The position numbers were made by a program, and so were the translations under genes. Source: Sorangium cellulosum (GTDB lineage: Bacteria; Myxococcota_A; Polyangia; Polyangiales; Polyangiaceae). From it: DNA of 38,975 bases. The notes below the pieces were generated by a model. That model made no database searches and had not been told where the DNA came from. It saw nothing but the letters and a program-made list of their open reading frames with translations. The stretch is taken from contig NZ_JEMA01000316.1 of assembly GCF_001589285.1 (NCBI RefSeq), positions 1 to 38,975 of the forward strand, read 5' to 3'. Below, piece after piece: positions 6,877 through 32,617 of the stretch (positions are counted from its first letter, which is position 1; the number at the start of each line of letters is the position of its first letter).

Positions 6877-7137
6877 CTGGCCTTCATGTCTCGCCGGTGA
6901 ATCCGTGAATGTCACCCCCGGTCGTGCCGACGGGGCCAGCTTTCCCGTGGCGGCATCCTGCACCGCGGCGCCCGCGTCCCTCCGGGAGACCCCACGGCCC
7001 CGCGACCGACCCCAGGTCGGGTAGCCGGCAGCGGTCGCCGGCCAGGGACGCCGCGTGCCTTGGTTTCCTCGGCTCGATCGGGCACAGTGGGGCTCGCTCG
7101 CCGCCGTGTCGCTCGACGCTGCTCCAGGAGGCCCCGT

Positions 7138-8832
7138 ATGCGCTCGATCCTGCCCACGCTGCTCCACTCGGCCTTCGTCGGCGTCAGCCGGCTCGCCAGG
7201 CTGCGCTTCGAGGCGCAGGCCCACCGGGCGGGCGCCGTGAACGAGCGCCTGCTGCTGGACATCGTGAGGCGACACCAGGGCACCGAGTTCGGACGACGTC
7301 ACCATTTCAGCGCGATCCGGACCGCGGGGGACTTTCAGCGGGCGGTGCCCATCGCCACCTACGACGACCTCCGCGCGGATATCGAGCGCATGGCCCGCGG
7401 GGCCCAGCGCGTGCTCACCGCCTATCCGGTCAACGCGTTCGCGCTGACCTCGGGCACGACGGGCACCCAGAAGCTGATCCCGGTCACCGCACTCGCGCAT
7501 CGCCAGCTCACGCAAACCGTCCTCACGAGTCGTGGCGTCGTGTTCAACGCGATCCCCGCGTCACGTGAGGACAGGCCCGCGGTCTCGTTGATGAGCGCGC
7601 TGCTGACCGGCCGGACCGAGGGCGGTTTTCCGACAGGCTCCATCTCCTGTTACATGATGCGCACAGCGCTCGAGCGGCGACCCGGAGCGTGGGCGTCCCC
7701 GCCGCAGGCCTTCCACGTCCCGGCCCACCCCGACGCGCTCTACCTGCACCTCCTGTTCGCGCTGGCGCAACCCGCGCTCGGGACGATCGTCGCGCCGTTC
7801 GCCTCCGGCCTCCTCGATTTCTTCCAGATCCTCGAGGCGCGCTGGCCTGCGCTTGTCGAGGACCTCGGCCGCGGAGCGGTGCGCCCCGACGTCGCCCTGC
7901 CGCCCGAGCTCGCGCAGCCGATTCGCGCCAGGCTGCGGGCCGATCCCGGGCGGGCGAGCGCCGTGGCGAAGGAGCTCGAGCGGGGTCTCGACGGCATCGC
8001 GCGGCGGCTCTGGCCGGGCCTCTCCCACGTCTCGGGCGGCACGAGCGGCAGCTTCCGGATCTACGCCGAGAAGCTCGCGCGCTACCTCGGCGATGTCCCG
8101 ATCTACTCGCCTTTTTACGTGTCCTCGGAGGCGATGCTCGGCATCAACCTCGGTCTGGGCGCCCCTGTCTACGCCCTCCTGCCGAGCTCCGCCTTCTACG
8201 AGTTCATCCCTGCCGACGAGCTCGACGCGGAGCGCCCCTCGGTCCGGCGCATCGACGAGCTCTCCGAGGGGGAACGGTACGAGATCGTCGTCACGACCCA
8301 CGGCGGGCTGTACCGCTACCGGATGGGCGACGTGATCGAGGTCGCGCGCCACCACCGTCGCGCGCCGGTGGTGGAGCTCATCCACCGGCGCGGGTGCCTG
8401 CTCAACATCGCCGGGGAGAAGACGTCCGAGCACGCGATCCATCGCGCCCTGGACGAGGCGCTGTCGAGGGAGGCCCTCGGGCTCGTGGACTTCTCGACGA
8501 TGGAAGATGCCGAGTCCGCGCTCAAGCGCTACGTCGTGTTCGTGGAGCTCACCGACGGGAGCCGGCCTGCGTCCATCGAGCGGCTCGCCGGGCGGATTGA
8601 CGACGCGCTCCGCGCGGCCAACCCGCACTACGCCACCCTCCGGGGGCGCCTCGGGCCGCTCTCGCTCCACGTCGTGCAGCCGGGGACGTTCCGCGCGCTG
8701 CGCGAGCTCCTGGTCCGCCGGGGCGCCTCGCCCGGCCAGGTGAAGGTGCCGCGCGTGGTGACCGAGGGCCCGCTCGCAGAGCTCTTGATGGCGCACCGCG
8801 CGGCCGCGCCGGCGCCTGCTGTCGCTCCCTGA
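7138..8832 (+). CDS. GH3 auxin-responsive-family acyl-acid amido synthetase
   Basis: The 564-residue product matches the GH3/JAR1 branch of adenylate-forming enzymes. The ATP-binding motif SGTTGTQKLIP lies near residues 105-115, a SSEAMLGINL block lies mid-protein, and the late motif GGLYRYRMGDVIEV precedes a C-terminal domain with NIAGEKTSEHAI. Plant members adenylate carboxylic acids and join them to amino acids; bacterial members are mostly uncharacterised. The open frame extends upstream to 7060, but ATG 7138 follows CAGGAGG and starts a sensible sequence (MRSILPTLLHSAFVG). It converges with the GH5 gene. Confidence 0.92.
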   Translation: MRSILPTLLHSAFVGVSRLARLRFEAQAHRAGAVNERLLLDIVRRHQGTEFGRRHHFSAIRTAGDFQRAVPIATYDDLRADIERMARGAQRVLTAYPVNAFALTSGTTGTQKLIPVTALAHRQLTQTVLTSRGVVFNAIPASREDRPAVSLMSALLTGRTEGGFPTGSISCYMMRTALERRPGAWASPPQAFHVPAHPDALYLHLLFALAQPALGTIVAPFASGLLDFFQILEARWPALVEDLGRGAVRPDVALPPELAQPIRARLRADPGRASAVAKELERGLDGIARRLWPGLSHVSGGTSGSFRIYAEKLARYLGDVPIYSPFYVSSEAMLGINLGLGAPVYALLPSSAFYEFIPADELDAERPSVRRIDELSEGERYEIVVTTHGGLYRYRMGDVIEVARHHRRAPVVELIHRRGCLLNIAGEKTSEHAIHRALDEALSREALGLVDFSTMEDAESALKRYVVFVELTDGSRPASIERLAGRIDDALRAANPHYATLRGRLGPLSLHVVQPGTFRALRELLVRRGASPGQVKVPRVVTEGPLAELLMAHRAAAPAPAVAP

Positions 8833-24860: not shown

Positions 24861-24917
24861 AACGGCGCTCGGACGAAGCGTGATCGACCATCCCTCTGCA
24901 GGGGCCCTCCCGGGGAA

Positions 24918-26678
24918 TCACGCGCTGACGAACTGCCGCTCGACCAGCCGTCGATACAGCCCGTCCTGCGCGACGAGCGCCGCGTGGGCCCCGCTCTGCA
25001 CGATCGTGCCGCCATCCATGACGAGCACGCGGTCGGCGCCCATCACCGTCGAGAGCCGGTGGGCGATGATCAGCGTCGTGCGGCCCTTCATGAGCGTATC
25101 GAGCGCCGCCTTCACGAGGTGCTCGCTCTCCGTGTCGAGCGCGCTCGTCGCCTCGTCGAGCACGAGCAGGCGAGGGTCCTTGAGCACGGCGCGGGCGATG
25201 GCCACGCGCTGCTTCTGCCCGCCGGAGAGCTGCACCCCGCGCTCGCCCACGAGCGTGCGATAGCCCTCCGGGAACCGCCGGATGAAATCGTGCGCGTTCG
25301 CCGCGCGCGCGGCGGCCTCGACCTCCTCGTCCGAGGCGCCCTCCCGGCCATAACGGATGTTGTCGGCGACGCTCGTGGCGAACAGGATGGGCTCCTGCGC
25401 GACGATGCCGATCTGCCGGCGGAGCCAGCTCGGCGACAGCGCGCGGAGGTCGCGCCCGTCGAGGAGGATGCGCCCCTCGTCGGGATCGTAGAGCCGCAGG
25501 AGCAGCGAGGCGATCGTCGATTTGCCGGCGCCGGACGACCCGACCAGCGCGATGACCTCTCCGGGACGTACGGAGAGATCGATCCCCTTGAGGACAGGCA
25601 CGTCCCTGCGCGCCGGATAGCTGAACCGCACCCGATGGAGCTCCAGCTTCCCCTGGACGTACGGCGGCTCGAGGCCGCCCGAGAGCGGCATGGCCGGCGT
25701 CCGGTCGAGCAGATCGAAGACGCGCTCGGCGGCGCCGAGCGCCCTCATGAACGCGGCCCACAGGTCGCTCAGGCCGGCGAGCGAGAAGGCGACGAGGAGC
25801 GTGTAGACGAGAAAGGAGGTGAGCTTGCCGAGCGTCATGCTCCCGGTGACAACGAGGTGGCCGCCGTACCAGAGCACGAGCCCCGTGGCGGCGTAGCCCG
25901 CGAACGTCACCACCCCCGAGAAGGCCCCCGAGGCGCGGACGCGGGTCCTGGCGCGCTCGAACGAGCTGGCCACTTGTCCGGCATAGCGCTCCACCTCCTG
26001 CTCCTCGGCGGCGAACGCGCGGACGGTGCGGATGCCCGAGAGCGCCTCCTCGGCGATCTCGCTGGAGCGCGCGAGCGAGTCCTGGACGGCGCGGGAGAGC
26101 TTGCGGACCTTGCGGCCGTAGATCACGGCGCCCACCAGCACGGGGGGGACCACCGACAGCATCAGCAGCGTGAGCCGCGGGGACGTGTACACGAGGAACC
26201 CGAGGCCGCCGATGACGGACGCGGTAAGTCGCAGCCCGGCGGAGATGTCCACGCTGACGGCGTTCTGGAGGACGGTCGTGTCCGAGGCGAGGCGGCTCGT
26301 CAGCTCACCTGTCCTTTGAGCATCGAAGAAGGCCATCTCCTGCCGGAGGACGTGCTCGAACAGGCGCGCGCGCAGCCGGGCGACAACGCGCTCGCCGGCG
26401 GTGGTGAAGAGGACGTACCGGAGCGCCACCGCGATGGCCTGGAGCGCGATGATGGGCACGAGCCAGAGCGCCATGCCGTCGATCGTCCCGGCGGCGTTCC
26501 CAGGCCCGAGCGCGTCGTCGATGATCCGCTGGATCACCTGTGGCAGGAGGAGGCTCATCCCGCTGCCGATGGCCAGGAACAAGGTACCGAGGGCGAGACT
26601 CCCGAGCTCGGGGCGGGCGAGGCGGAGGAGACGCAGGAGGTGTCCGGGGCTGCTCCGCCCCTCGTCTGAGCGCTGCAT
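24918..26678 (-). CDS. ABC exporter with fused membrane and ATPase domains, possible lanthipeptide exporter
   Basis: The 586-residue protein is a half-size exporter: a six-helix type I membrane domain (about 20-310) and an ATPase domain (about 345-580). It has Walker A GSSGAGKST (Lys386), a Q-loop in AQEPILFA, signature LSGGQKQR, Walker B LLVLDEATSALD and H-loop His540 in IIAHRLST. It should work as a homodimer. There is no N-terminal C39 peptidase domain, so it would not cleave a leader. ATG 26678 follows AAGGAGG. It diverges from the lanthipeptide precursor 466 bases away, which makes it the best candidate for the exporter, but a general lipid/drug flippase role cannot be excluded. Confidence 0.93.
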   Translation of the reverse strand: MQRSDEGRSSPGHLLRLLRLARPELGSLALGTLFLAIGSGMSLLLPQVIQRIIDDALGPGNAAGTIDGMALWLVPIIALQAIAVALRYVLFTTAGERVVARLRARLFEHVLRQEMAFFDAQRTGELTSRLASDTTVLQNAVSVDISAGLRLTASVIGGLGFLVYTSPRLTLLMLSVVPPVLVGAVIYGRKVRKLSRAVQDSLARSSEIAEEALSGIRTVRAFAAEEQEVERYAGQVASSFERARTRVRASGAFSGVVTFAGYAATGLVLWYGGHLVVTGSMTLGKLTSFLVYTLLVAFSLAGLSDLWAAFMRALGAAERVFDLLDRTPAMPLSGGLEPPYVQGKLELHRVRFSYPARRDVPVLKGIDLSVRPGEVIALVGSSGAGKSTIASLLLRLYDPDEGRILLDGRDLRALSPSWLRRQIGIVAQEPILFATSVADNIRYGREGASDEEVEAAARAANAHDFIRRFPEGYRTLVGERGVQLSGGQKQRVAIARAVLKDPRLLVLDEATSALDTESEHLVKAALDTLMKGRTTLIIAHRLSTVMGADRVLVMDGGTIVQSGAHAALVAQDGLYRRLVERQFVSA

Positions 26679-26907
26679 TGGCCTCCTTCAGCCTAGCAGG
26701 CGCCGCGCGATCGGGCGCGCGCCGCGGCGCTCGCGTGACACCGCATGCAACCTGTCGGGCGCTACGCCGCTTTCGCAGGATATGGTTTGACCACCTCGCT
26801 CGGTCGAGTCCGCTTGCGCTGGATATCCACTGACCACGTCGATGAGGCGACGGACAGAGCGATGCGGGCTCAGCCTTGGGTTCGTGGCAGAGCGCTACAT
26901 GCCGTCA

Positions 26908-26949
26908 ATTTTGCCACCGCGTGATTGAGACATTTTGCCAGTCTCGATC
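26908..26949. promoter_or_regulatory. Direct repeats and dyad upstream of lanthipeptide precursor
   Basis: ATTTTGCCA occurs at 26908-26916 and 26932-26940. The second copy is the loop of a dyad: GATTGAGAC (26923-26931) faces GTCTCGATC (26941-26949) with one mismatched position. It could be a regulator site about 200 bases before the precursor start, or a cruciform; no regulator gene is adjacent. Confidence 0.5.
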
Positions 26950-27130
26950 ATGCTGCATCGGATTCCACATGTTTTGATCTGCAACCGTCTCGCGTTCATC
27001 AACTCAGGCTTCTGTTTGTGCAGTAATATTCTGGTGTTGTCATAAAAGGATGGGCAAATGGCATCATCTCGGACGCCCCGGCAACGCCGACCGAGGTTTG
27101 GCCTCGCTCTTGCTGAACCCCTCCTCGACC

Positions 27131-27138
27131 AAAGGAGG
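27131..27138 (+). promoter_or_regulatory. Strong ribosome binding site of lanthipeptide precursor
   Basis: AAAGGAGG ends six bases before ATG 27145. It decides the start: the same frame is open from ATG 27058, but that upstream part reads as Arg/Pro-rich noncoding sequence and has no such site. Confidence 0.9.
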
Positions 27139-27144
27139 TCAATT

Positions 27145-27282
27145 ATGAAGAAGATCCTGTCGCTCCAGAAGCTCTCGACGAAGGGTACGACCACGGGCGG
27201 TGGCGGTGGCGGCGGTGGTGGCTCGCATGCCAGCCTGCTGCTCTGCGGGGACTCCTCGCTGAGCCTCACGAGCTGTAAATAG
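27145..27282 (+). CDS. SapB-like class III lanthipeptide precursor
   Basis: This 45-residue peptide starts MKKILSLQKLSTKGTTT, continues with nine Gly (18-26) and ends with core SHASLLLCGDSSLSLTSCK (27-45). The core has two Ser-X2-Ser-X3-Cys motifs: Ser27/Ser30/Cys34 and Ser37/Ser40/Cys44. In class III peptides the Ser residues are phosphorylated and eliminated, then Cys adds to give lanthionine or labionin rings. From memory the SapB core of Streptomyces coelicolor RamS reads SRASLLLCGDSSLSITTCN, so 15 of 19 positions agree. The leader keeps ILSLQ, like the LxLQ recognition motif of RamS-type leaders, but the poly-Gly run is unusual. The LanKC gene lies 225 bases downstream. Mature ends and ring type are not known. 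Confidence 0.93.
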   Translation: MKKILSLQKLSTKGTTTGGGGGGGGGSHASLLLCGDSSLSLTSCK

Positions 27283-27323
27283 TCCTGCATAGAGGGCCAT
27301 TGCAGCGAATGCAGTATGGAGCG

Positions 27324-27369
27324 AGCAGAGTCCTCTCCCGGGGGTAAGCCTTCGGGAGAGGACTCTGCT
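27324..27369 (+). terminator. 17-bp perfect hairpin after precursor gene
   Basis: AGCAGAGTCCTCTCCCG (27324-27340) pairs fully with 27353-27369 around a 12-base loop, 41 bases past the precursor stop. No T-run follows, so it could be a leaky terminator or a 3' stabiliser that lets the precursor message exceed that of the synthetase, as is common in lanthipeptide operons. Confidence 0.75.
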
Positions 27370-27420
27370 CCTCTGCGTTTGTGGTTCATGATTCGAGGTG
27401 CGTCCGCCGGCACGTGGACG

Positions 27421-27455
27421 CGCCCTGGTCGCCGTCGTCTCTCGCGACCAGGGCG
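27421..27455 (+). promoter_or_regulatory. Second intercistronic hairpin, before LanKC gene
   Basis: CGCCCTGGTCGC (27421-27432) pairs fully with 27444-27455 around an 11-base loop and ends 52 bases before the synthetase ATG. It may add to transcript attenuation or protect the 5' end of a processed synthetase message. Confidence 0.65.
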
Positions 27456-27507
27456 GGGGAGCCGTCGACCGCGCCGTCTCCTCGGGACCCGTGGCCAGTG
27501 AGGGATC

Positions 27508-30162
27508 ATGCAAGGCATCGACAGAAGGGCGAGAGAACGCATCGTTGATTTCACGATCACTCACCCGGAGCGCTACGCGAACCTGGATAGCTACAGGTCC
27601 GAGAGGGCAGAGTTCAGGAACCTGGTGAAGGGGCTCGTGCCCGAGGGCTGGGCGGTCGGAGAGAGCCCGGGGCTATGGTGCGAGGTCCACCCGCCGGAGA
27701 AGCGGGTGCCGGACGGCGGGTTCAAGATCCACCTGTCGACGACGCACGACAGCGCGCGGGACATGCTGGCGGCGGTGGCGCCCATCCTCGTGGAGGAGGG
27801 CGCTTCGTTCAAGGTCCTCGTCGACGAGCGGGTCCTCGACCTCGGCAACTCGACGTTCTGGGGCCGGGGCGCGTGCGGCAAGTTCATCACCATCTACCCC
27901 GCGGACGTCGACCAGCTCAAGCGGCTCCTGGAGCGCGTCCACGACGTCACGAAGGACTTCCGGGGTCCGTACATCCTGTCCGACAAGCGCTACAAGGACA
28001 GCAAGGTGCTGTTCTACCGCTACGGCGCCTTCAGGAAGGCGAGCCAGGTCAACGTGTTCGGTGAGCAGATCCCCATGCTCCGGACCGCGGACGGCCAGAT
28101 GCTCCCCGACTACCGGCTACCCTACTTCGGCCTGCCCGAGGGGGTCAGCGATCCGTTCCCGGACACGGAGGAAGAGGACGACGAGCTCGTCCTGAAGGGC
28201 AGGTACAAGGCGACCGAGGCGCTGGGCACCTCGAGCAAGGGCGGCGTCTACAAGTGCCTCGATCTGGAGACGAACGAGGAGGTCGTGGTCAAGGAGGCCA
28301 GGCCGCTCGTGAACCGGGGGAGGAAGATCCCGCACGACGCGATCGATTGTCTGAGAAACGAGCACCGCGTCCTCGAGCGCCTGGAAGGCACCGGCGTGAC
28401 CCCTCGGCCGATCGAGCTCTTCGACGAATGGGAGCACAGCTTCCTCGCCATGGATCTCGTCAAGGGAATGCCCCTCGGGCACTACCTCGGCTCCTGGCAG
28501 TCGTCGATCCTGCTCATGACGGATCCGACCGTCGATGACATCCGGAGGTACTGTGAGGAGTTCCTGGACATCGCGCGGAAGATCCTCGCCGGGGCGCGGA
28601 AGATCCATGAACGAGGGGTGGTGATCCAGGACATCTCGCCGCGAAACATCCTGTTCGATCCGGAGGAGCGGACGGTGATGTTCATCGATTTCGAGGCGGC
28701 TTACATCCAGGAGCGCGACGCCGGCGGGCTGATCATCCCGATCCACACGGCCGGCTTCGGCGAGGAGCGGAAGATGGGTGAGGCGCCGACTGTCGCTGGC
28801 GACTACAGGGCGCTGAGCCGCATCCTCGGCGAGCTCGTGTTTCCGCCCACCCCCTTCTTTTCTCTCTCTCCGCAGCACCGGGCGCCCATGCTGGCGCACG
28901 TCGCGAGGGAGCTCGGCGTCCCCGAGGCGTTCGTGCGGCTGATCCTCGGGGTGGGCGAGCAGCCGGAGCGCGTGGACGCGCTGCTCTCGGAGGCCGAGCG
29001 CAGCATCGAGCGCGTCACCGCCGTCGAGCCGCTCCGGCCGCTCCGGAGCGACGACGACCGACGGAAGATCGTCGATTCGATCGGGAGCCACATCGTGGCG
29101 CAGATCGGCAGCGGCGACGATCCGCTGGATCTGCCGATGGACTACCGGCGTTTCATGACGAACCGGCTGAGCGTCGCGTATGGCGCGTCCGGCATCGCGC
29201 TCTTCCTGAAGCGGACGCGGGGAGAGGTCCCCGGGGCGTTCCTCGACGCGCTGGCGGGCGAGGCGTCGAAGATCGACAATGGCAGCTATGCGCCCGGGCT
29301 CTACATTGGCAGCGCCGGCGTCGCATGGACGCTCCTGGAGCTCGGGATGCGCAAGGAGGCAGAGGCGCTCATGGATCTGGCGGCCAGGTCGCCGATCCTC
29401 TTCGAGAACGCCGACATGTTCTACGGCGCCGCGGGCTGGGGCCTCGCCAACCTCTTCTTCTTCGCGCAGCTCGGCGACGAGAGGTACCTCAAGAACGCTG
29501 TCGACGCGTTCGACCACATCAGGCCGAACCTGAAGGAGGACAGGGGCGGGTACTGTTACGAGAACACGGACACCGTGTATCACGGCCTCGCGCACGGGGC
29601 CTCCGGCATCGGCTATTTCATGCTGCGGCTCTACAGGGCCTCCGGGCGGGAGGAGCACCTCGAGGTGGCGAAGGGGCTCCTCGACTTCGAGCTCGCGAGC
29701 GCCGAGCAGCAGGAGGGGAAGGAACACCTCGTGTTCCGACGATCCATCGAGGAGAACGTCTACTATCCGTACTGGCGGATCGGCGGCGCCGGCGTCGGCA
29801 CTGTCGCGCTGCGGTTCCACGCGGCGCTGGGCGACCCTCGCTACCTGGAGACGGCGCGGAAGATCGCGCTTCACCTCGAGGGCGGTTACACCGTCTTCCC
29901 CACGAACTTCTCCGGGATGTCCGGGATCGGCAACTTCTTCGTCGACCTGCACCGCCGCACGGAAGACGGGCGCTACCTCGAGGAGGCCCGCCGGTTCGTC
30001 GACAGGGTGATGCTGTTCGCGCTCGAGAAGCCGTCGGGGCTCGCGTTCCCCGGCGAGGAGCTCCTCCGCATCTCGACCGATTATGGAACCGGATCCGCCG
30101 GGATCGGGATGTTCATTCACCGGACCGTCGCCGGCGGCGGGCTTCCGTATTTCGATTTCTGA
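27508..30162 (+). CDS. Class III lanthipeptide synthetase LanKC
   Basis: The 884-residue enzyme has the RamC/LabKC layout. The N-terminal lyase-like region (1 to about 220) contains VPEGW, FKIHLSTTHD (Lys73/His75) and GKFITIYP. The kinase domain (about 230-500) has a Gly-rich loop GTSSKGGVYK, VVKEARP, catalytic Asp375 in VVIQDISPRNILFD, and IDFEAAY (Asp394) in place of DFG. The cyclase domain (about 525-884) has LanC repeats GSAGVAWTLLELG, GAAGWGLANLFF, YHGLAHGASGIGYFML and GGAGVGTVALRF; the Cys-Cys-His zinc site of class I LanC enzymes is not seen, as usual for class III. It should phosphorylate, dehydrate and cyclise the 45-residue precursor upstream. ATG 27508 follows GAGGG. Confidence 0.96.
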   Translation: MQGIDRRARERIVDFTITHPERYANLDSYRSERAEFRNLVKGLVPEGWAVGESPGLWCEVHPPEKRVPDGGFKIHLSTTHDSARDMLAAVAPILVEEGASFKVLVDERVLDLGNSTFWGRGACGKFITIYPADVDQLKRLLERVHDVTKDFRGPYILSDKRYKDSKVLFYRYGAFRKASQVNVFGEQIPMLRTADGQMLPDYRLPYFGLPEGVSDPFPDTEEEDDELVLKGRYKATEALGTSSKGGVYKCLDLETNEEVVVKEARPLVNRGRKIPHDAIDCLRNEHRVLERLEGTGVTPRPIELFDEWEHSFLAMDLVKGMPLGHYLGSWQSSILLMTDPTVDDIRRYCEEFLDIARKILAGARKIHERGVVIQDISPRNILFDPEERTVMFIDFEAAYIQERDAGGLIIPIHTAGFGEERKMGEAPTVAGDYRALSRILGELVFPPTPFFSLSPQHRAPMLAHVARELGVPEAFVRLILGVGEQPERVDALLSEAERSIERVTAVEPLRPLRSDDDRRKIVDSIGSHIVAQIGSGDDPLDLPMDYRRFMTNRLSVAYGASGIALFLKRTRGEVPGAFLDALAGEASKIDNGSYAPGLYIGSAGVAWTLLELGMRKEAEALMDLAARSPILFENADMFYGAAGWGLANLFFFAQLGDERYLKNAVDAFDHIRPNLKEDRGGYCYENTDTVYHGLAHGASGIGYFMLRLYRASGREEHLEVAKGLLDFELASAEQQEGKEHLVFRRSIEENVYYPYWRIGGAGVGTVALRFHAALGDPRYLETARKIALHLEGGYTVFPTNFSGMSGIGNFFVDLHRRTEDGRYLEEARRFVDRVMLFALEKPSGLAFPGEELLRISTDYGTGSAGIGMFIHRTVAGGGLPYFDF

Positions 30163-30163
30163 C

Positions 30164-30188
30164 GCGATCGGCCCTCCAGGCCGATCGC
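30164..30188 (+). terminator. Hairpin after LanKC gene
   Basis: GCGATCGGCC pairs fully with 30179-30188 around a 5-base loop, two bases after the stop codon. No T-run, so probably an intrinsic-like 3' structure helped by other factors. Confidence 0.6.
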
Positions 30189-30245
30189 TCCGCCGCGCGC
30201 GCGCCACGGGCGCGCGTCACGGCGGCCGAGCCGAGGAGCGCGTCC

Positions 30246-31127
30246 TCAGCTCGGGCGCGTCAGGCGGACGACCTTGGCGCCGGGACGCGGATCGATCGGG
30301 GGCAACGCGAGCACGAGCCGCTCGATCTGCGGCAAGGCGTGCTGCACCGCGCCCTCCGCCTGGAGCTCGGAGAACGGGCCGGGGTAGGCGAGGACCAGGC
30401 GGTAGATGCTCGCGAAGGAGCGCGCGTACACGCCCACCTGCTCGTCTTGACCGACGAACCGGCCGTGAACGGCGCCCTCGGAGGCCGCGGGGCCCCGCAC
30501 GCGATCGATGGCGCGCGCGATCGCTACCTGCCGCCGCCACGCGTTCGGGCTGCGTGAGCCGCGCTCCCGGATCTTCTGGAGGTGGCCGGCGATCGTCTCG
30601 CGCTCCCCGGGGCCGAGCGACGTTGTCGCGAGCGTCTGCTCCAGCGCGAGGTCGTCGAGCTCGAGCAGATCGATCAGGTTCACGCCGGCGTGCTCGACGT
30701 CGTCGGCCCACTGCGCGAGCAGCAACGCGTAGCCGACGTCCGCCTCGTCCCGGCGCGGCTCCGAGGTCCCCCAGATCACCGGGGAGGCGTCGTCCACGAC
30801 GACCGCGCCGAGCGCCCCCGCGCGCTGCGCGAGCACCTCCAGCTCGTCGTCCAGGCGGTGCGTCGACCCGCCGTGCGCCGGCCGCTGGGCTCCACCCCCT
30901 GACGAGAGCCCTGCGAACGCGGCGGAGAGCTCCTCGAGCCGCCTCGAGACCTCGGCCGGCTCGCCGGGCGGCTCGGCGAAGCGCGCGACCAGCCGCGAGC
31001 CGTTCGGCAGCGCGCACCACACAGCGCGCGGGTCGGCGGGGGGCTTGCCGCCGAGCTCGATCAGGGCGTCATCGGCCGAGAGCTCGCGCTGCACGAGATC
31101 CAGGAAACGGAGCAGGGCTGAGTCCAT
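30246..31127 (-). CDS. Hypothetical protein, possibly Roadblock-like
   Basis: The 293-residue protein has no signal or membrane segment. Two parts, ELEVLAQRAGALGAVVVDDASPVIWG and a late ARSFASIYRLVLAYPGPFSELQAEGAV, resemble split halves of a Roadblock/LC7-type domain as seen in regulators of small GTPases, with a long helical insert (WADDVEHAGVNLIDLLELDDLALEQTL) between them. This is a weak likeness. ATG 31127 begins MDSALLRFLDLVQREL, a good start; the in-frame upstream codon at 31178 gives Gly/Pro-rich residues. It converges with LanKC and diverges from the DUF1704 gene; neither suggests a role. Confidence 0.65.
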   Translation of the reverse strand: MDSALLRFLDLVQRELSADDALIELGGKPPADPRAVWCALPNGSRLVARFAEPPGEPAEVSRRLEELSAAFAGLSSGGGAQRPAHGGSTHRLDDELEVLAQRAGALGAVVVDDASPVIWGTSEPRRDEADVGYALLLAQWADDVEHAGVNLIDLLELDDLALEQTLATTSLGPGERETIAGHLQKIRERGSRSPNAWRRQVAIARAIDRVRGPAASEGAVHGRFVGQDEQVGVYARSFASIYRLVLAYPGPFSELQAEGAVQHALPQIERLVLALPPIDPRPGAKVVRLTRPS

Positions 31128-31297: not shown

Positions 31298-32617
31298 ATG
31301 AGCATCGACCGCGCCGTGCTGGAGCAGATCGATCGGGTCGGCGGGCGTCTGGCGGAGGGCAAGGCCCTCAGGCTGCTCGACGACATCGCCTGGCCCCGCG
31401 AGGTGGAGGAGCGCTTCTTCGCCTCCGGCGAGGAGCGCCTCCCCGAGGTCGAGTACCGCGTCGACCGCGACGGGCTCGCGCGGCGCATCGCCGAGCTGCG
31501 CGAGCTGCTCCGGTCGATCGACGGCGACGCCCCGGCGCTCGCGTGGCTGCGGGACAACGTGCGCGCGCAGATCCAGGCCGCGGAGCTGCTCGACGCCGCG
31601 GGCACCCGCGAGTTCTCCGAGCGCTCGCGGGAGCTCTACGGCGGCGCGCGCACGCGGTTCTACGGGAGCGCGCTCAGGAACATCGACCTCGCCGAGCACC
31701 TCACCGAGCGCCTGCGCGTCCACGGCTGGGACGAGGCGAGCGACCCCGAGGAGGAGCCGCTCGACGCGGGCGCGCTCCGGGACCAGCTCGCCGCGCGCGT
31801 GGCCGCGCGGAGGCCGCACATCGACATCGAGATCGCGCTCGACCCGCGGATCACGGCCAAGGTGGTGGCCGGCATGAGCCGGGTCCGCGTCCGGCCGGAG
31901 GCCACCTTCGCGTCGTGGGAGGCCGAGGGGCTGTGGCACCACGAGGTCGAGACGCACGCGCTCACCGCGCACAACGGCGCGGCGCAGCCGAGGCTGCCGT
32001 TCCTGCGCTCGGGCGGCCCGCGCACGACGCGCACGCAGGAGGGGATCGCCATCTTCGCCGAGCTGTACAGCCGCTCGCTCTCCATCGGCCGGCTCACCCG
32101 GCTCGCCGAGCGGGTGCGCCTCGTGGACATGGCCGAGCAGGGCGCGAGCTTCGTCGATCTCTACCGCTACCTGCGCGAGCGCGGCGCCGAGCGCCGCGAC
32201 GCCTACTTCGACGCCCAGCGCGTCTGCCGCGGCGGGCTCTGCGAGGGCGGCGCGCCGTTCACCAAGGACGCCTGCTACCTGGCCGGCATGCTCGAGGTCT
32301 ACGCCTTCCTGGCCGCCGTCCTGCGCGGCGGGCTGCGCGACGAGGTGGAGCTGCTCGTGTGCGGCCGGATCGCGCTCGACGACATCGCGGTGCTCGCGGA
32401 GCTGCGCGCGGCCGGGGCGCTCGAGCGGCCGCGCTACCTGCCGGGCTGGCTGCGCGCCTGGCAGACGCTGCTGCCGTACTTCGCGTTCACGTCGTTCATG
32501 GACGGCATCGATCTCGGCCCGGTGGAGCGGCACTTCCAGGAGCTGCTCCGCGTGGCCGCGGAAGCGCGGCCGGCCGGGGAGGGGAGGCGGCGCCGCCCCA
32601 GGCCGCGCGAGGCGTGA
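31298..32617 (+). CDS. DUF1704 (QEGLA-motif) putative zinc metallopeptidase
   Basis: The 439-residue protein has the two hallmarks of the family annotated as flavohemoglobin expression-modulating QEGLA-motif proteins: HHEVETHALTAHNG with HExxxH (His215, Glu216, His220), and TRTQEGIAIFAELYS with QEGIA (247-251), whose Glu248 is the likely third zinc ligand. Eukaryotic relatives are the MATCAP (KIAA0895-type) tubulin carboxypeptidases, which use the same residues. A carboxypeptidase-like activity is therefore plausible; the bacterial substrate is unknown. ATG 31298 starts MSIDRAVLEQIDRVGGRLAEG. The end is Arg/Pro-rich. It is single, with no obvious operon partner. Confidence 0.9.
   Translation: MSIDRAVLEQIDRVGGRLAEGKALRLLDDIAWPREVEERFFASGEERLPEVEYRVDRDGLARRIAELRELLRSIDGDAPALAWLRDNVRAQIQAAELLDAAGTREFSERSRELYGGARTRFYGSALRNIDLAEHLTERLRVHGWDEASDPEEEPLDAGALRDQLAARVAARRPHIDIEIALDPRITAKVVAGMSRVRVRPEATFASWEAEGLWHHEVETHALTAHNGAAQPRLPFLRSGGPRTTRTQEGIAIFAELYSRSLSIGRLTRLAERVRLVDMAEQGASFVDLYRYLRERGAERRDAYFDAQRVCRGGLCEGGAPFTKDACYLAGMLEVYAFLAAVLRGGLRDEVELLVCGRIALDDIAVLAELRAAGALERPRYLPGWLRAWQTLLPYFAFTSFMDGIDLGPVERHFQELLRVAAEARPAGEGRRRRPRPREA

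Follow-up and report, generated by a model that had tools for sequence, protein, structure and literature searches.

We present a class III lanthipeptide cassette from Sorangium cellulosum whose precursor ends in a core identical at 15 of 19 positions to that of SapB, the morphogenetic peptide of the Streptomyces ram cluster. The stretch of DNA analysed, here called the window, is 38,975 nucleotides long (bases 1-38975 of a 40,944-base contig) and comes from an assembly of 11.86 Mb in 1269 contigs with an estimated contamination of 7.94%. Gene content and family membership are those of a class III system; the cassette is conserved as a unit, stands between collinear flanks and has a synthetase of separate ancestry. 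The reading we prefer, with a probability of about 0.55, is that of a complete, native and patchily distributed Sorangium cassette whose variable core converged on SapB. An origin of the SapB-like core by convergence within the Sorangium lineage, rather than by import, is thereby favoured. The features of the cassette are collected in Table 1.

Table 1. Features of the lanthipeptide cassette in window coordinates (G002 is one of the Sorangium genomes compared).
Feature	Position	Strand	Basis
Whole cassette	24861..30245		Stretch that lacks homology in G002, whose locus is collinear on either side
MsbA-like ABC exporter half-transporter, 586 aa	24918..26678	-	PF00664 and PF00005
Class III lanthipeptide precursor, SapB/AmfS family	27145..27282	+	Pfam RamS and NCBIfam SapB_AmfS models, core comparison
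Hairpin with 22-bp perfect stem, between precursor and LanKC	27323..27370	+	Fold z -6.3; 0 of 200 shuffles equally stable
LanKC, class III lanthionine synthetase, 884 aa	27508..30162	+	RamC_N, kinase and LanC-like domains

The precursor gene encodes 45 residues followed by a stop codon (MKKILSLQKLSTKGTTTGGGGGGGGGSHASLLLCGDSSLSLTSCK), arranged as a leader, MKKILSLQKLSTKGTTT, a linker of nine glycines and the core, SHASLLLCGDSSLSLTSCK. Within the leader, LSLQ is an instance of LxLQ, which the accessible part of PMC7268733 gives as the leader motif of class III lanthipeptides. The product exceeds the cut-offs of both the Pfam RamS model (PF19402; 48.5 bits against 24.3, E 1.2e-12) and the NCBIfam SapB_AmfS model (NF033212; 51.7 bits against 25, E 7.1e-14), which places it in the class III family and bears out the initial annotation, made from the sequence alone, of a SapB-type lanthipeptide precursor. 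That annotation had also put the core residues shared with RamS at 15 of 19, and the count proved right against the fetched protein WP_003972313.1 (MNLFDLQSMETPKEEAMGDVETGSRASLLLCGDSSLSITTCN) of the S. fungicidicus plasmid NZ_CP023408, a sequence which we take to be that of S. coelicolor RamS. The identities include an unbroken run of 12 residues, ASLLLCGDSSLS, and the two Ser-X2-Ser-X3-Cys motifs with SapB spacing that had been described can be read directly from the core. For all precursors the comparison took the last 22 residues, which is rough where precursors have tails, and the S. chartreusis precursor was left unscored. The unmodified window core has a mean hydropathy of 0.49 and SapB one of 0.48; three relatives of the window core are more hydrophobic at 1.26-1.48 (So ce26 1.26, So ceGT47 1.40). 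Its calculated mass is 1920.93 Da unmodified and would be 1848.89 Da with four waters lost, each retained linker Gly adding 57.02.

The same three cassette genes are found at other chromosomal sites in the complete genomes of S. cellulosum So ce26 (NZ_CP012673.1) and So ceGT47 (NZ_CP012670.1), where LanKC is 75% and 74% and the ABC exporter 89% and 80% identical to the window's. Leader, gene order and hairpin are likewise the same, and a strong Shine-Dalgarno sequence, AAAGGAGGTCAA in the window, stands before all three precursors. These two cassettes differ from the window's in their surroundings, in a first ring of x4 spacing and in more hydrophobic cores, in which no more than 9-10 of 19 positions agree with SapB; between the strains, the ABC and precursor-LanKC genes of the lan loci are shared and the fetched flanks are not. 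The E-values of the models, the LanKC gene that starts 225 bp 3' of the precursor gene and the preservation of the unit in two complete Sorangium genomes confirm that the precursor reading frame is real and beyond chance. Searches with the precursor itself returned little: tblastn against plasmids gave no matches, an outcome that the low-complexity filter deprives of weight, and the 15 matches in the PDB (best E 0.013) were all unrelated chains. Among 51 candidate stretches of viral contigs there was no LanKC relative, and the single DNA-pattern match was an unrelated reading frame.

The synthetase has the lyase, kinase and LanC-like parts of a class III system (PF25816, PF00069, PF05147). It scores 735 bits against NF038151 (cut-off 575) and 517 bits against the class IV model, under the 650 required there, and it matches solved class III LanKC structures such as 8sao (E 1.5e-59). 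An AlphaFold model computed on a three-sequence alignment was poor (mean pLDDT 42.5), and nothing here is based on it. Upstream of the precursor and divergently oriented lies the gene of the ABC half-transporter, in which no peptidase domain was reported and which probably exports the peptide. In partial alignments it is 31-37% identical to four ABC exporters encoded in class III clusters of actinobacteria, and it falls within a Sorangium ABC group that includes stand-alone copies in the Sorangium genomes G001, G002 and G005; with the two rows of the Polyangiaceae genome G396 left out of the tree, branches inside that group are mostly weak, and the tree is given no weight. Of these relatives (loci L056, L057, L058 and L059), those in G005, G001 and G002 occupy a common collinear site that lacks LanKC; a partial copy is found elsewhere in the genome of the window, on a different contig. 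From these sequences, the exporter gene of the cassette has the look of a duplicate that was recruited.

Between the precursor and LanKC stands the hairpin, of which a 12-bp stem is common to the three Sorangium loci, with 36 of 36 cells paired and two pairs altered on both sides. This covariation comes from three sequences, its values being reached by 36 of 500 shuffles, and slid versions pair 42-58% of cells. The window copy is followed by no T-run, and no sigma-70 promoter-like or T-run terminator-like site was found between 26600 and 27600. No Rfam match was obtained between 24500 and 30500, and no tRNA in the whole window. The element probably serves to stabilise the mRNA or to attenuate transcription, favouring the precursor over LanKC.

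With the SapB/RamS system the cassette has in common two S-x2-S-x3-C motifs, 15 of 19 core residues, equal mean hydropathy, a LanKC enzyme, an adjoining ABC transporter and a cassette that holds no protease gene. The Ram system is laid out as ramC-S-A-B-R. The window departs from it in leader type (MKKILSLQKLS as against MNLFDLQSMET in RamS), in LanKC lineage (~30% identity to RamC) and in its Gram-negative host. The Ram gene order of LanKC, precursor and two ABC genes on one strand is absent, for the precursor is upstream of LanKC and there is one divergent ABC half-transporter, as opposed to two co-directional ones in the S. fungicidicus cluster used for comparison. No LuxR-type regulator was seen among the window ORFs scanned, which are a part of all its ORFs.

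A tree of LanKC, the analysis proposed in the initial annotation, was built from 28 LanKC/LanL rows, 20 of them derived from plasmids and eight from Sorangium and Polyangiaceae. The plasmid search had given 105 LanKC places in 99 records, from which one place each from 19 records and one further Embleya region were taken; where rows lacked annotation, a simple rule fixed the LanKC start codon. Three Sorangium LanKC and that of G396 form a clade with 100/100 support. It is separate from a second 100/100 clade, whose 16 rows comprise the RamC group, further class III enzymes from actinobacteria, two from Bacillota and two from another Polyangiaceae genome (G024). The Sorangium clade is also apart from a six-row group around class IV enzymes; tree support does not place it relative to the two Deinococcus rows. 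When the Sorangium clade was forced together with five RamC-group rows the tree became 228 log units worse (p-AU 4e-42), so that this grouping is rejected, with the qualification that the clade was named after the tree had been seen and that the window row was flagged for a letter make-up unlike that of the alignment. The references come from plasmid records, in which chromosomal actinobacterial LanKC are under-sampled. Transfer of a Streptomyces system, one of the two origins first suggested, is thus not upheld: the window LanKC, at ~30% identity to RamC and outside the RamC clade, does not qualify as a Ram orthologue, the exporter is of Sorangium type and the leader of another type.

The best plasmid match to the window LanKC, at 33.8%, is from Deinococcus, and the class III cluster on plasmids of Deinococcus sp. 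QL22 and D. gobiensis is accordingly the nearest non-Sorangium one in that search (~34%). The QL22 leader is MNKILKLQSLSTTS, and the QL22 precursors begin MNKILKLQSLST, similar to the Sorangium MKKILSLQKLST. Unlike the window, the Deinococcus cluster has repeated precursors, hydrophilic unrelated cores, a LuxR regulator and a co-directional ABC gene. On the QL22 plasmid (L024, 4883-5878), five near-identical class III precursors stand in tandem before LanKC.

The SapB core is thus uncoupled from the Ram enzymes, two synthetase lineages ~30% identical having nearly one core. The closest relatives of S. fungicidicus RamC, with LanKC at 67% and 77%, have cores matching SapB at 19 and 18 of 19 positions; the Embleya cassette (64%) reaches just 12, seven others with LanKC at 42-52% reach 3 to 9, and the window, at 30%, reaches 15. 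Closer to the window, the matches are 10/19 in So ce26, 9/19 in So ceGT47 and 4/19 in G396, where the core has a single S-x2-S-x4-C ring. The first ring is of x4 spacing in all three, which suggests that the x3 ring of the window is derived. As the synthetase belongs to a separate family branch, the likeness to SapB may be independent. How readily it could arise at random was estimated with a crude null model, in which the profile was made from 12 cores outside the RamC group and the ring residues were fixed. At least 15 of 19 matches occurred in 3 and 1 of 400,000 draws, depending on the pseudocount (~3e-6 to 8e-6), and in 0 of 400,000 with a two-core profile of Sorangium only. Given such frequencies, convergence would need selection and not chance.

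The codons bear on whether the core was brought in from outside. Among the 15 shared residues, identical codons number 8, 10 and 9 in three comparisons, against 7.6-7.7 expected (P 0.53, 0.16 and 0.30), and against Embleya 6 of 12, with 5.9 expected (P 0.60). A recent graft of Streptomyces core DNA is rejected, codon identity being at expectation in all four comparisons. The ring serines are written TCN/AGC/TCN/AGC in all three Sorangium cores and TCG/AGC in the ring of G396, and the four Streptomycetaceae cores have AGC at all four; serine usage in five window genes is 113 TCN to 76 AGY. This pattern is moderate evidence, since by our own arithmetic the chance of it at four sites is ~0.06, and the test used four RamS genes, all from Streptomycetaceae, so that a donor with other codons is conceivable. 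Because the codons argue against import, the x3 ring looks derived and retention is implausible, convergence under selection is favoured. That SapB was invented twice under selection, either as the physical optimum for a two-ring surfactant that raises multicellular structures into the air or as mimicry by which Streptomyces neighbours are manipulated, has in our estimation slightly less than an even chance.

Among other origins, an old exchange of the core comes closest, although we consider it unlikely. The native leader and LanKC would have been kept and the core replaced by a piece of an actinobacterial ramS, perhaps with the poly-Gly linker, through recombination in Gly-repeat DNA. The run of 12 identical residues and the improbability of convergence by chance speak for such an event, and near-identical leader DNA (37/39 and 35/39 nt among the Sorangium cassettes) beside strongly different cores is what a swap would give. 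In Streptomyces NBC_01001 and Embleya, too, RamS has a run of glycines immediately ahead of a SapB-type core, but sister Sorangium precursors with other cores have Gly runs as well. Codon identity with Streptomycetaceae does not rise above expectation, and the codon blocks of Ser1 and Ser11 fit the Sorangium relatives and not the four Streptomycetaceae, from which Ser12 differs too.

Retention of an old core, the second origin first suggested, is poorly supported, as the closest sister cassettes have diverged cores, and we hold it to be improbable. It supposes that the common ancestor of RamC and the window LanKC already made a SapB-type core which has stayed unchanged here, and it can appeal to the LxLQ-type motif common to the class III leaders seen and to the two-ring plan that several cores share. 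However, where LanKC is 74-75% identical to the window enzyme, the cores match at only 9-10 of 19 positions; G396, as the nearest outgroup, has just one ring, of x4 spacing, and the Deinococcus cores are unrelated. The core would have had to survive ~70% synthetase divergence and yet be lost within 25%, which makes this history implausible.

The surroundings of the cassette settle its host. The initial annotation had taken the DNA to be probably myxobacterial, and it belongs to a soil myxobacterium of the genus Sorangium. A histidine-kinase gene on the left of the cassette and a MATCAP-family gene on the right have relatives in G001, G002, G003 and G005 (81-85% and 91-92% identical, respectively); at the cut-offs applied, G004 has none for either. 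The two genes keep their order in G002, G003 and G005, ~6, ~9 and ~11 kb apart with no LanKC; in G001 they are far apart. Homology to G002 ends at ~24841 and restarts at 30246, and that to G003 and G005 restarts only at ~31250; at the cassette site these three genomes carry other orthologous genes (316 aa, 89-93% identical) with no match in the window. Since the flanks are collinear and the cassette is bracketed by the break in G002 homology, the window is genuine Sorangium chromosome with the cassette in a variable site. Actinobacterial contamination, which the initial annotation had named as fatal to its proposal and which the state of the draft (1269 contigs, contamination estimated at 7.94%) might invite, is rejected with near certainty: the flank genes have counterparts of 81-92% identity in four other Sorangium genomes, three of which keep them collinear, and the cassette lies also on two single-contig Sorangium chromosomes. 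The MATCAP-family gene (31298-32617; PF08014, microtubule-associated tyrosine carboxypeptidase, E 6.9e-114) thus occurs here in a bacterium, and its product is 91-92% identical in four of five congeners. Elsewhere in the window, 7060-8832 encodes a GH3-family enzyme (PF03321, GH3_M and GH3_C) in a myxobacterium; the family is best known from plant hormone conjugation.

In the general class III scheme the leader is recognised, serines are phosphorylated and eliminated, two lanthionine or labionin rings are closed, and the product is exported by an ABC transporter and trimmed by an unlinked protease. On this model LanKC would bind the precursor via its (K)ILSLQKL leader and phosphorylate the core serines before elimination, and Cys8 would be joined to Dha1 and Cys18 to Dha11 in two SapB-like rings, or else labionins would form that include Ser4 and Ser14. 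The strong hairpin 3' of the precursor gene may hold precursor transcripts above those of LanKC. The divergent ABC transporter would export the product, and a protease encoded elsewhere would remove leader and Gly linker; about one third of more than 20,000 lanthipeptide clusters have no protease gene, according to the accessible text of PMC10885120. The mature peptide is predicted to be a small amphiphile with the mean hydropathy of SapB and may serve as a wetting agent or surfactant on the surface of cells or colonies. Surface activity during swarming or fruiting is the most natural function to propose for it. Since the sister cores are more hydrophobic and have a first ring of x4 spacing, the members of the cassette family need not share one function.

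A doubtful alternative, compatible with any origin of the core, is that the peptide is aimed at other organisms, as a SapB mimic or antagonist against Streptomyces competitors or prey, or as an antibacterial. A patchy, strain-specific cassette at differing sites and with a variable core resembles an ecological weapon or signal more than a housekeeping developmental gene, and an excerpt of PMC13380574 describes how other Streptomyces species formed aerial hyphae in response to a variant of durhapeptin. Yet the sister cores are not closely SapB-like, and activity of this kind is purely predicted. The two phyla in which nearly the same core is paired with different synthetase lineages both build aerial multicellular structures. 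It can now be tested if the SapB sequence represents the physical optimum of a developmental surfactant, an exchanged module or a case of cross-species mimicry. The Sorangium cassettes, constant in leader but variable in core and differing in site, offer a small set of natural variants of a class III core.

With the window's own genome included in the counts, the RamS model matched in 4 of 59 relatives and in 1 of 377 genomes of an even phylum sample, the latter being this genome; RamC_N matched in 7 of 108 genomes of the family, in 7 of 183 of the order, all within this family, and in 2 of the 377. The unit of ABC exporter, precursor, hairpin and LanKC is present in three of six Sorangium genomes, two of these being single-contig chromosomes, and one of the cassette-negative genomes is an 89% complete draft. 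When genome contigs were scanned with the LanKC alignment, only So ce26 and So ceGT47 came up. In the available part of PMC7268733 most LanKC are placed in Actinobacteria and Firmicutes, and in that of PMC9011353 SapB-like precursors are described from several other actinobacterial genera that form aerial hyphae. A class III lanthipeptide in a myxobacterium is not new, since boletupeptin from Melittangium boletus has been reported and is cited as class III in the accessible portion of PMC12328550; the known likeness to the window peptide is one of class. No SapB-like peptide from a myxobacterium was found in the literature searched, which mostly lay outside subscription journals. The Polyangiaceae genome G024 has two LanKC, in L006 (G024:C1:2460000-2478000) and L022 (G024:C1:4984000-4999000), 51% and 42% identical to S. 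fungicidicus RamC, with precursors that begin MSILDLQAIED and MAILDLQRF. The tree puts both with enzymes of actinobacteria (one branch at only 83/88), and, unlike the window cassette, they look from their sequences like transfers from Actinomycetota.
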